From Acidobacteriota bacterium (GTDB lineage Bacteria > Acidobacteriota > Vicinamibacteria > Vicinamibacterales > UBA8438): a stretch of 64,000 bases of DNA. Below, piece by piece: positions 4,478 through 43,104 of this stretch. Each line of letters starts with the position of its first letter. Position 1 is the first letter of the stretch. The DNA is taken from assembly GCA_026708265.1 (NCBI GenBank), contig JAPOVI010000070.1, positions 1 through 64,000 on the forward strand, in the 5' to 3' direction. Made by a program: the position numbers and the translations under genes. The notes under the pieces are model-generated. The model did no database searches and was not told the DNA's origin. It saw only the letters and a list, made by a program, of their open reading frames with translations.

Positions 4478-4661
4478 CCTTTCTGGCGGGTGAGGGCGAA
4501 TCTCCCGGCGGATGAAGGCGCCCTTTCCGGGAACTGAGGGCGAGCGCGATCGCATCGCTGCCGGTCGTGGTGCGGGTGGCTTTCTCCCAGCGGGTGGGAT
4601 AGCAGGCGGCTTCGTGGGCAAGCCGAAGCAGGTTAGGCTCGCCGGCGACGAGCTGGTTGAT

Positions 4662-5138
4662 CTAGGCGTCCTCGAGAACGAGCTCGGTCGTGCACTCGAT
4701 CGATCCCGAGATCGATCGGTAGACCGGGCACTTCGGCATGTGGCTGTCGAACGCGCGCTGGATCTTGGCGCGGTCGGTGTCTGCATCGACCTTGAGGTGG
4801 TACACGACGTGCACGCGCTTGATCACGATGACGCCATCGTCCTCGGCCTCGACCTCGCCCGTCGTCTCACCGACGAGGCGACCCTCGCCTGCTGGGATCT
4901 GACGCGCCTCCAGCGCGCCTCCGAACGTTCCGGTGAGTCAGCCGCCCGCCGCGGCAATGATGTAGTCGAGCGTCGCGGCCCGCTCGGACTCCGTGCCCGC
5001 TGGGACGCCGTAGTGCTCAGCGATGCCCGAGTGGACGCCGAACATGACCGGCTCTGCCTCGACGGGAATGATTGCGCGCCGCAGCGGCCCGCGAACTCGC
5101 TCGATCCGAACGTTCGAGGTGTAGATGACACGACCCAT
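4662..5138 (-). CDS. OsmC-like protein, candidate selenoprotein (in-frame TGA 4938-4940 at the conserved Cys position)
   Basis: MGRVIYTSNVRIERVRGPLRRAIIPVEAEPVMFGVHSGIAEHYGVPAGTESERAATLDYIIAAAGG[TGA]LTGTFGGALEARQIPAGEGRLVGETTGEVEAEDDGVIVIKRVHVVYHLKVDADTDRAKIQRAFDSHMPKCPVYRSISGSIECTTELVLEDA*; frame stays open on both sides of the TGA. Confidence 0.75.
4901..4940 (-). promoter_or_regulatory. Candidate bacterial SECIS (UGA plus downstream hairpin) in OsmC-like gene
   Basis: UGA-25 nt-loop; stem GGCGCGC/GCGCGUC (7 bp with one G-U), loop UGGAG with G at loop position 2. Confidence 0.6.
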
Positions 5139-5180
5139 GGCACGCATGCTAGGCGAAGCTGCGGCCAGTAGCCTTGTGAG

Positions 5181-6068
5181 GTGGCGAGAGTCGCGCTGAT
5201 CGGGACGGGGACGATGGGGCTCCCGATGGGACGCCAGCTCGTTGCGGCAGGCCATGAGGTCGTGGCGTGCGATCTCGACCCGGCGCAGGCTGCCAGGCTC
5301 GGTACCGCCACGGCCGCGATGCCCGCTGAAGCCGGCCGGGATGCCGAAGTGGCGCTTACTTCCCTACCCTCCGTGGGGGCCGTCGAGGAGGTGGTCCTGG
5401 GCGCTGACGGTCTGGAGGCCACCATGGCGCCAGGGACGACGGTGATCGACATGTCGACGAGCCCACCCGCGCTTGCGCGCAGGCTTGCGGGCGAGCTCGC
5501 CACGCGAGGCATCGAGTTTCTCGATGCACCGGTGAGCGGGGGCCCCACGGGTGCGCAGGCCGGCACGCTCGCGATCATGGTCGGCGGGGAGGAGCCGGTG
5601 TTCGCGCGGTGGCGCGAGCTCCTGGGCGCCCTGGGGACCAAGGTTGAGTATGTCGGCCGCCACGGCGCGGGCCAGACCGTGAAGCTCTGCAACAACCTCA
5701 TGGTCGCCTGCACGATGGCTGCAATGGCTGAGGCCTGTGCCGTGCTGGAGGGCGAGGGCGTCGACCCGGCCATCGCCTACGAGGTCTTCACGCGCTCGAC
5801 GAGCGACTCCAGTGTCATGCGGCGCCGGTTCCCACTTCCCGGGGTGCGGCCGGAACATCCCGCCTCCCAGGAGTACGAGCCGATGTTTCGCGTCGACCTG
5901 CTGGTGAAGGACATCGAGCTCGCGCTCGATCTCGCCCGCGAGCAAGGGGTCGAGTGCTCGACCGGCGCGGCTGCTGCGGCGCTGTACCGAGCCACGGTTG
6001 AGGAGGGCCTCGGCGCGCTCGACTACTCGGCGGTCGCGTTGGCCGTACCTCGGTCGGATCCCGGCTAG
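5181..6068 (+). CDS. NAD(P)-dependent 3-hydroxyisobutyrate dehydrogenase / beta-hydroxyacid dehydrogenase
   Basis: VARVALIGTGTMGLPMGRQLVAAGHEVVACDLD, FLDAPVSGGPTGAQAGTLAIMVGG, GAGQTVKLCNN. Confidence 0.9.
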   Translation: MARVALIGTGTMGLPMGRQLVAAGHEVVACDLDPAQAARLGTATAAMPAEAGRDAEVALTSLPSVGAVEEVVLGADGLEATMAPGTTVIDMSTSPPALARRLAGELATRGIEFLDAPVSGGPTGAQAGTLAIMVGGEEPVFARWRELLGALGTKVEYVGRHGAGQTVKLCNNLMVACTMAAMAEACAVLEGEGVDPAIAYEVFTRSTSDSSVMRRRFPLPGVRPEHPASQEYEPMFRVDLLVKDIELALDLAREQGVECSTGAAAAALYRATVEEGLGALDYSAVALAVPRSDPG

Positions 6069-40926: not shown

Positions 40927-43104
40927 TCACGCTTCTCCGAGCGCGCGCTCGAGACCGCCCCCGTAGGCGTGCTCGAGCTCTGCGAGCTGAATGCCAAACA
41001 GCGACTCGCCGGCGACGACGCCGACCGCGCGAACCGGTACGCCACTGCCCGTGACCCGGCCGACGCGGCTCGGAGAGCACGCCACGACAGCCTGACCGCC
41101 GCCCTCGCCGAACAGCTCCTCGGCGTCCCAGCCAAGGTCGAGCTCGACGCCAACACGCGAGTGCAGCGCGCTCTCCACGAGCGCGGTCGCCAGTCCGCCC
41201 ACACCCGCATCATGGCTGTGCGACAGCTCGGGAGCAAGCGACGAGAGCGTCCGCACGAGCTTCGCCTCAGCCACGAGGTCCGGCCAGGCGATCGCACCGG
41301 CCTGACCGTCGAGGAACAGCGTCTCGTACTGCGAGCCGTCGAGCCGAAGCATCGGGTTGCCGACACTCAGCACGACATCGCCCTCCTGCCACTTCGCGGG
41401 CACAGACCGCACATCCTCGATGAGACCCACGCAGCCAACCACCGGCGTGGGATGGATGGCACTGCCATCGGTCTCGTTGTACAGCGAGACGTTGCCAGAG
41501 ACGATCGGGATACCGAGAGCCTCGCAGGCGAGCGCCATTCCCTCGATCGTCTGCGCGAGCTCCCAGGCGATCTCGGGCTTCTCGGGGTTGCCGAAGTTGA
41601 GGCAGTTCGTGAACGCGAGCGGCTCCCCCCCTGCGCAGGCTGCGTTTCGCGCGGCCTCCATGACCGCAAGAGCCCCGCCGGCCTGCGGGCCGAGCGCGGC
41701 GAGCCGGCCGGCGCCATCCAGCGAGAGCGCAAGGCCCTTGTAGCCTGGACGGAGCCGCAGCACCGCAGCATCCAGGCCGGGCCGACGCGCTGTCCGTGAC
41801 TGCACGAGCTGGTCGTACTGGCGATAGACCCAGGCGCGGCTCGCGACGTTCGCGGAGGCGAGCACACCAAGCAGCTCGTCGGGTGTGGCCGTCCGCGGCT
41901 CGCGCGGGCGGGGCGACGGGATCTCCCGCTCGCGCGTCTCGACGCGATAGCGAGGTGCCTGTGCCAAGAACTGCGCGGGAATCGCTCCGACCTCCTGTCC
42001 ACGAAAGAAGCAGCGCAGAACACCGGTGTCGGTCACCGTGCCGATGACCGCGTGGTGGAGATCCCACTTCTCGCAGGCTGCGGCGACCTCATCGATCGAC
42101 CCCGGCTCGACGACAGCCACCATCCGCTCCTGGCTCTCGGAGATCATGATCTCCGCAGCGCTCATTCCCGGCTCGCGCAGCGGCACGCGGTCGAGGTGAA
42201 CGTCGATGCCCGCACCACTTCTCGCTGCCATCTCGGAGATCGAGGACGCAAGGCCGGCAGCACCGAGATCCTGCAGTGACGCGACAAGGCCTCCCTCGAC
42301 GAGCTCGAGGCTTGCCTCGATGAGCTTCTTGCCCGTGAACGGATCGCCGATCTGAACGGACGGGCGCTTGTCGAGGTTGTCGTCAGAGAGCTCCTGGCTC
42401 GCGAGCACGCTCGCCCCGCCAATGCCGTCACGCCCGGTCGAGGCGCCATAGAGGACGATGCGGTTCCCGACGCCGGCCGCCTGCGAGCGGGTCAGCCTCT
42501 CCTCCGGCAGGAGCCCGACGCACATCGCGTTCACAAGGCAGTTCTCGCGGTAGGCCTCGTCGAACACGCATTCCCCACCGACCGTGGGAACACCCACGCA
42601 GTTCCCGTAGTTTCCGATTCCAGCGACGGCGTTGCTGAACAGCCAGCGCTGGTGCGGCTCCGTCAACTCGCCGAAGCACAGCGAATCGAGCAGTGCCACT
42701 GGTCGGGCGCCCATCGCGACGATGTCCCGCAGAATCCCGCCGGCACCGGTCGCCGCCCCCTGGAATGGCTCGACGGCGCTCGGATGATTGTGGCTCTCCA
42801 CCTTGAACGCGACCGCCAAGCCGTCTCCCACTGAGACAACGCCAGCGTTCTCGCCAGGACCCTGGAGCACGTGAGGGCCCTCGGAGGGAAACCGCCTTAA
42901 GAGCAGCGCGGAGTGCTTGTAGCCGCAGTGCTCAGACCAGAGCAGGGAGAACACTGCGAGCTCGAAGTCGTTGGGCTCGCGCCCGAGCAACCCACCGATC
43001 CGCTCGAACTCCGCGTCTGTGAGACCGAGCGCGTGAGGCAGCGTCAGGTTCGTGTCCTGCGCGCAGGCCGTCTCCCGTGAGTGGGTTTCCGCGACCGAGG
43101 TCAA
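40927..43104 (-). CDS. purL: Phosphoribosylformylglycinamidine synthase subunit
   Basis: LLWSEHCGYKHSALLLRRFPSEGPHVLQGPGENAGVV; FKVESHNHPSAVEPFQGAATGAGGILRDI; PVVGCVGLIEDV. Confidence 0.96.
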   Translation of the reverse strand: MTSVAETHSRETACAQDTNLTLPHALGLTDAEFERIGGLLGREPNDFELAVFSLLWSEHCGYKHSALLLRRFPSEGPHVLQGPGENAGVVSVGDGLAVAFKVESHNHPSAVEPFQGAATGAGGILRDIVAMGARPVALLDSLCFGELTEPHQRWLFSNAVAGIGNYGNCVGVPTVGGECVFDEAYRENCLVNAMCVGLLPEERLTRSQAAGVGNRIVLYGASTGRDGIGGASVLASQELSDDNLDKRPSVQIGDPFTGKKLIEASLELVEGGLVASLQDLGAAGLASSISEMAARSGAGIDVHLDRVPLREPGMSAAEIMISESQERMVAVVEPGSIDEVAAACEKWDLHHAVIGTVTDTGVLRCFFRGQEVGAIPAQFLAQAPRYRVETREREIPSPRPREPRTATPDELLGVLASANVASRAWVYRQYDQLVQSRTARRPGLDAAVLRLRPGYKGLALSLDGAGRLAALGPQAGGALAVMEAARNAACAGGEPLAFTNCLNFGNPEKPEIAWELAQTIEGMALACEALGIPIVSGNVSLYNETDGSAIHPTPVVGCVGLIEDVRSVPAKWQEGDVVLSVGNPMLRLDGSQYETLFLDGQAGAIAWPDLVAEAKLVRTLSSLAPELSHSHDAGVGGLATALVESALHSRVGVELDLGWDAEELFGEGGGQAVVACSPSRVGRVTGSGVPVRAVGVVAGESLFGIQLAELEHAYGGGLERALGEA

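Follow-up and report, generated by a model that had tools for sequence, protein, structure and literature searches.

The minus-strand gene at 5138-4662 of the window, that is, of the whole stretch of 64,000 nucleotides that was analysed, is best explained as encoding a selenoprotein of the OsmC/Ohr fold, in which an in-frame UGA is read as selenocysteine (Sec) with the help of a SECIS hairpin and Sec67 is the peroxidatic residue. We infer Sec insertion and hold this reading with very high confidence. It is strongly supported by the reading frame, the fold, the Sec/Cys column in homologues, the conserved hairpin and the co-occurrence of Sec machinery. The relevant features are as follows.

5138-4662, minus strand: predicted OsmC-fold selenoprotein gene, 158 codons and a TAG stop, with ATG at 5138
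4938-4940, minus strand: in-frame TGA, the single TGA of the frame, predicted Sec67
4965-4967, minus strand: Asp58, an acidic residue nine residues before Sec, invariant in alignments A1 and A2
4728-4730, minus strand: Cys137 of the KCPVYRS motif, predicted resolving Cys; C137 and P138 are invariant in alignment A2
4919-4901, minus strand: bacterial SECIS-like hairpin GGCGCGC/UGGAG/GCGCGUC, with a 7-bp stem and UGGAG loop (or 8 bp and a GGA loop)
1-46000, no strand: DNA that is Thermoleophilia-like and foreign to the remaining bin, by tetranucleotide profile, GC and AT skew; boundary at about 45.5-46.5 kb
40927-43104, minus strand: second PurL copy, within the Thermoleophilia-like part

The reading frame and its product

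The frame reads MGRVIYTS...AAAGG-U-LTGTFGGALEARQ...KCPVYRSISGSIECTTELVLEDA and ends in TAG. A preliminary description of this DNA had reported a frame uninterrupted except for the TGA, with a downstream Cys in CPVY, and its coordinates, strand and frame were all confirmed. With the TGA read through, the product of 158 residues matches Pfam OsmC (PF02566) with an E-value of 1.8e-11 and 44.8 bits (cut-off 27.5). Its AlphaFold model, made with 42 sequences, has a pLDDT of 94.1 and a pTM of 0.87, and the nearest solved structures are OsmC and Ohr proteins; profile match and fold both place the protein in PF02566. The two redox positions, U/C67 and C137-P138 (the second in a CP motif), are invariant in the alignment.

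An antisense open frame of 219 residues, 4512-5171 on the plus strand, covers the whole gene and is longer than either of the halves into which the TGA splits it. Such antisense frames are also present at homologous loci, and the one in the window could get annotated instead of the selenoprotein gene. The divergent neighbour at 5181-6068 (plus strand) resembles the 3-hydroxyisobutyrate dehydrogenase family (VALIGTGTMGLPMGRQLV), as judged by eye. No broad conserved neighbourhood of the gene was found, the commonest shared "neighbours" being the gene's own antisense shadows, and comparison with plasmids and phages gave no match.

The TGA codon and the hairpin in homologues

A homologue was present in 30 of the 60 genomes searched (the bin and 29 of its 59 relatives), each with one TGA. 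This TGA is at the same codon as 4938-4940 in every relative's homologue that was read, one relative's match being in two pieces; leaving aside the window's own gene, the homologues from the bin's relatives are 41-50% identical. The bin has a second TGA-containing OsmC-type gene (G000:C382:19963-20388, minus strand, within L138), of a type common among its relatives. Among 80 loci from a scan of public genomes, 79 have TGA at this codon and one, from Geobacter sp. palsa_1151, has TGT (Cys), a proportion biased to Sec members because the search pattern was modelled on Sec-containing sequences. As labelled in the sequence records, which are mostly of MAGs, these loci come from Chloroflexi, Acidobacteria, Actinobacteria, Gemmatimonadetes, Desulfobacterales and Geobacter, Poribacteria, Nitrospirae, Nitrospinota and KSB1.

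A protein search of 299 genomes from the class of the nearest named relative found a homologue in 42. The six top-scoring ones (57-80% identical) all have TGA; the lower-scoring ones (29-45% identical) are mostly without a stop, with a minority having TGA, and the stop-free ones that were read carry TGC or TGT (Cys) at the Sec column. Thermoleophilia Cys homologues (L177-L197 and L199), 35-45% identical and with the motif CLIGT or CLTGT, share this column with the window protein, whereas their codon is TGC or TGT and the hairpin is not kept; the TGA and Cys genes fall mostly into separate clades, so that the contrast is partly one of ancestry. A conserved in-frame UGA with Sec/Cys pairing among homologues, as is looked for in selenoproteins, is thus present, and the proposal that the TGA stands at the conserved redox Cys is borne out.

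If a single genome were seen alone, one TGA in an otherwise open frame would resemble a recent nonsense change, or a misread TGC or TGT. However, the same TGA is found in more than 100 homologues from many phyla. Purifying selection is about as strong after the TGA as before it, most differences being at third codon positions. Sequencing error is unworkable because the nearest relative found (L171, 80% identical) and other close relatives have TGA at the same codon. We therefore regard a pseudogene or an error as extremely improbable. Decoding of the TGA as an ordinary amino acid under another genetic code deserves equally little credence: it has the open frame in its favour and nothing more, whereas the PurL, PurF-like and luciferase-like genes on the same DNA end in TGA, the TGA-free homologues carry Cys, and the carriers are spread across many phyla, mostly with selA.

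The preliminary description had also placed a 7-bp stem, GGCGCGC/GCGCGUC, after the UGA, and the hairpin was located where it had been proposed, beginning 18 nt after the UGA with its UGGAG loop 25 nt after it. The RNAfold check that it called for favoured the same stem, but with U-G added as the closing pair, which leaves a loop of 3 nt, and the folding energy did not stand out: it was unremarkable over 51-76 nt (z of -0.2 and +0.2) and modest over 31 nt (z of -2.1). Codon-preserving shuffles showed a small mean shift in folding energy (z about -0.7), and the SECIS score of the window gene by itself gave p = 0.1. The folding energy of the window's hairpin, not being significant, was dropped as evidence; it is weak by itself, and the case for a hairpin beyond chance is comparative.

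In the 68 TGA genes having the window's form of the hairpin, the codons of the stem are nearly frozen: GGC for Gly+7 in 64, GCG for Ala+8 in all 68, CTG for Leu+9 in 66, GCG at codon +11 in 65, and CGC or CGT for Arg+12 in 64. Elsewhere in the same genes GCG makes up 34% of the Ala codons. The loop codon is free (GAA in 36, GAG in 31), and all four Gly codons occur just before the stem. This pattern of frozen stem and free loop spans many phyla and holds at 45-49% GC. The wobble base of Ala8 and the second base of codon 11 pair as G-C in 63 cases, A-U in 28 and G-U in one. The 28 A-U cases belong to the LLGT branch, where codon 11 is Val (GTG) and the Ala+8 codon has become GCA, so that the pair is kept; as this branch is one clade, the change may be a single event. 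At least six of the seven pairs are present, in the window's geometry, in 94 of 115 TGA genes vs 0 of 22 Cys genes.

Other members have other hairpins. Seventeen, mostly marine SAR202/Dehalococcoidia, have the different sequence GCC CTT GAG GCY CGC, for which a possible GCGG-u-GCC/CUUGA/GGC-YCGC with a bulged base can be drawn by eye. A third form, with a stem of 6-7 bp and the loop CGGCG(U/C), is seen in L198 and L200. These alternative hairpins at the same place, in L198, L200 and loci of the L083-L108 type, suggest a SECIS remodelled under the same protein constraint. The other feature looked for in selenoproteins, a hairpin shortly after the UGA whose first loop bases include G, is found in the window gene.

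Decoding of UGA in bacteria competes with termination. The gene might in that case have two useful products, a short form of 66 residues and the Sec-containing full-length protein, in a ratio set by selenium supply, and the hairpin would set the efficiency. The short form, however, would have neither the Sec position nor the second half of the fold in the AlphaFold model, and there is no sign that it is useful. We consider this improbable and retain full-length Sec insertion as the reading of the gene.

Source of the DNA and the selenocysteine machinery

The contig of the window (C135) is composite. In 4-kb stretches its tetranucleotide correlation with the rest of the bin is 0.76-0.84 up to about 46 kb and 0.88-0.94 from there onward, and near 46 kb GC goes up and AT skew shifts. 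The left part contains PurL and a PurF-like gene; the right part is compositionally like the rest of the bin. The window PurL is about 50% identical to the bin's own (C165) and to PurL of the same genus, vs 69-76% identical to those of two other genomes that also carry close homologues of the window's OsmC gene (73% and 69% identical): Thermoleophilia bacterium Bin1.3, with locus L058, and Acidobacteriota REEB338, with locus L059, which is nevertheless listed in the class of the former. The bin proper looks Gram-negative, since a heptosyltransferase lies just beyond the composition boundary and a TonB-receptor-like frame, read from translation, precedes the bin's selA. The bin has a contamination of 9.4%. 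A mis-joined contig is the likeliest cause of the composition break; a large recent transfer is possible.

A search of the source bin for Sec machinery, as had been proposed, found tRNA-Sec (C165), selA (C389) and selD (C334), on contigs with the bin's composition. These were initially accepted as support but were discounted when the window turned out to be composite: positions 1 to about 46 kb are foreign to the bin, so its selA, selD and tRNA-Sec are irrelevant to the window gene. The machinery was there, apart from selB, but in the case of this DNA the bin was the wrong place to look. The tRNA-Sec search of the bin gave eight matches, two of them past the cut-off, and ARAGORN called one of the four best a tRNA-Sec and the rest tRNA-Ser or tRNA-Leu. 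The best match in another genome (G044) was rejected as a tRNA-Ser. Five candidates for selB in the bin were rejected, being read as EF-Tu, IF2, BipA, LepA and EF-G; there was one further weak match (L014). The SelB wing domain was not found in the bin and is present in genomes of the same genus, so the missing selB is probably an assembly gap. The bin's selD (L016) is part of a long frame whose translation suggests a NADH dehydrogenase-like FAD domain at its N terminus.

The foreign 46 kb yielded no Sec machinery of its own, and the machinery of the actual source organism is therefore inferred from relatives. Of 50 genomes carrying the OsmC gene, 44 have a selA match past the cut-off, including those of L058 and L059; five gave no selA match and a sixth a weak, non-specific one, and these are mostly drafts. 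In the L058 and L059 genomes, the two nearest named ones and of the Thermoleophilia type, tRNA-Sec was confirmed by ARAGORN, and contig C95 of the latter holds selA, tRNA-Sec and a piece of PurL that is 76% identical to the window PurL. Five relatives of the bin lack a credible selA, four giving no match and one a match of 24.7 bits; none of the five has an OsmC homologue. The suggestion of a probable selenoprotein is thus upheld by the conserved TGA, the Sec/Cys column, the conserved hairpin and the presence of selA in 44 of 50 carriers.

Relation to known OsmC proteins and likely function

The preliminary description was correct that metagenomic surveys had reported OsmC-like selenoproteins, but these are of another form. 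An OsmC-like selenoprotein with the motif UxxT was described from the Sargasso Sea in 2005 (three sequences, with a bacterial SECIS shown after the UGA; PMC1088965) and from the GOS survey in 2008 (five sequences; PMC2398784), and reviews of 2022 and 2026 give the UxxT motif only (PMC9312934, PMC13188914). No further form of OsmC selenoprotein turned up in our literature search, and the main text of the deep-Sep paper makes no mention of OsmC. The published protein resembles that of the window in belonging to the OsmC superfamily and in having Sec in place of the peroxidatic Cys. The motifs differ: the window has U-L-T-G-T and its relatives U-(L/M)-x-G-T, so that the branch reads GGU(L/M)xGT, in place of UxxT (ULLT), and its second Cys lies in a CPVYRS or CPAANS context.

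NCBIfam has a model for OsmC (seleno)proteins, NF041052 (OsmC_like_Se). The window protein scores 22.8 bits against it, below the cut-off of 95 and thus outside the family, and 12 of the 14 members of alignment A1 match weakly (best E 1.8e-6). One genome (G104) carries both branches as separate genes, L127 of the window's branch and L209, which has ULLT with TGA and scores 136.5 bits; from the motif of L209, NF041052 appears to be the published UxxT family. Because of the scores of 22.8 and 136.5 and the occurrence of both branches in G104, the window gene is placed in a separate branch. By its motif and NF041052 score, GGUxxGT forms a distinct branch within a kind of protein already known; it is absent from the current lists that were consulted and may be undescribed. 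We think it rather likely that it constitutes a second subfamily of OsmC-fold selenoproteins, found in at least eight phyla, almost always with Sec and with at least three SECIS hairpins, that has been overlooked.

The Ohr/OsmC peroxiredoxins (TIGR03561, TIGR03562; PDB 1ukk, 1zb9, 1nye, 2bjo) share the fold and the same two redox positions with the window protein, which has Sec rather than Cys at the first position and is 9-21% identical to those structures. From the fold, the invariant U67, D58, C137 and P138 and established knowledge of Ohr and OsmC, the likely function is Sec-dependent peroxide reduction. SelB and Sec-tRNA-Sec would bind the SECIS hairpin, and the ribosome would decode the UGA at 4938-4940 as selenocysteine. 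Sec67 would take the place of the peroxide-attacking Cys of OsmC/Ohr and reduce a hydroperoxide, forming a selenenylsulphide with the resolving Cys137 that a cellular thiol would reduce again. Asp58 presumably stands where OsmC/Ohr-type proteins have their active-site Glu.

A Sec-dependent OsmC-fold protein might instead have a main role other than peroxide reduction, such as thiol transfer or the handling of electrophiles, sulphur or selenium. The functional evidence is made up of the OsmC fold with its Sec/Cys pair; Asp replaces Glu as the acidic residue, the +3/+4 residues (GT) are unlike those of known OsmC selenoproteins, and no conserved neighbourhood hints at a substrate. Against this, Sec at the peroxidatic position together with an invariant second Cys is the arrangement of a peroxidase. 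Such a role is conceivable but unlikely, and peroxide reduction is preferred.

In summary, the reviews present OsmC-like selenoproteins as one small marine family, and the GGUxxGT branch occurs in at least eight bacterial phyla, in organisms of soil, groundwater and the sea. No NCBIfam model is passed by this branch, and its genes are easily mis-annotated, likely as truncated or antisense ORFs. The branch also provides a natural collection of sequences for studying how SECIS structure restricts codon choice, and the pair of Sec and Cys branches is a clear case for asking what the OsmC/Ohr mechanism gains from Sec.
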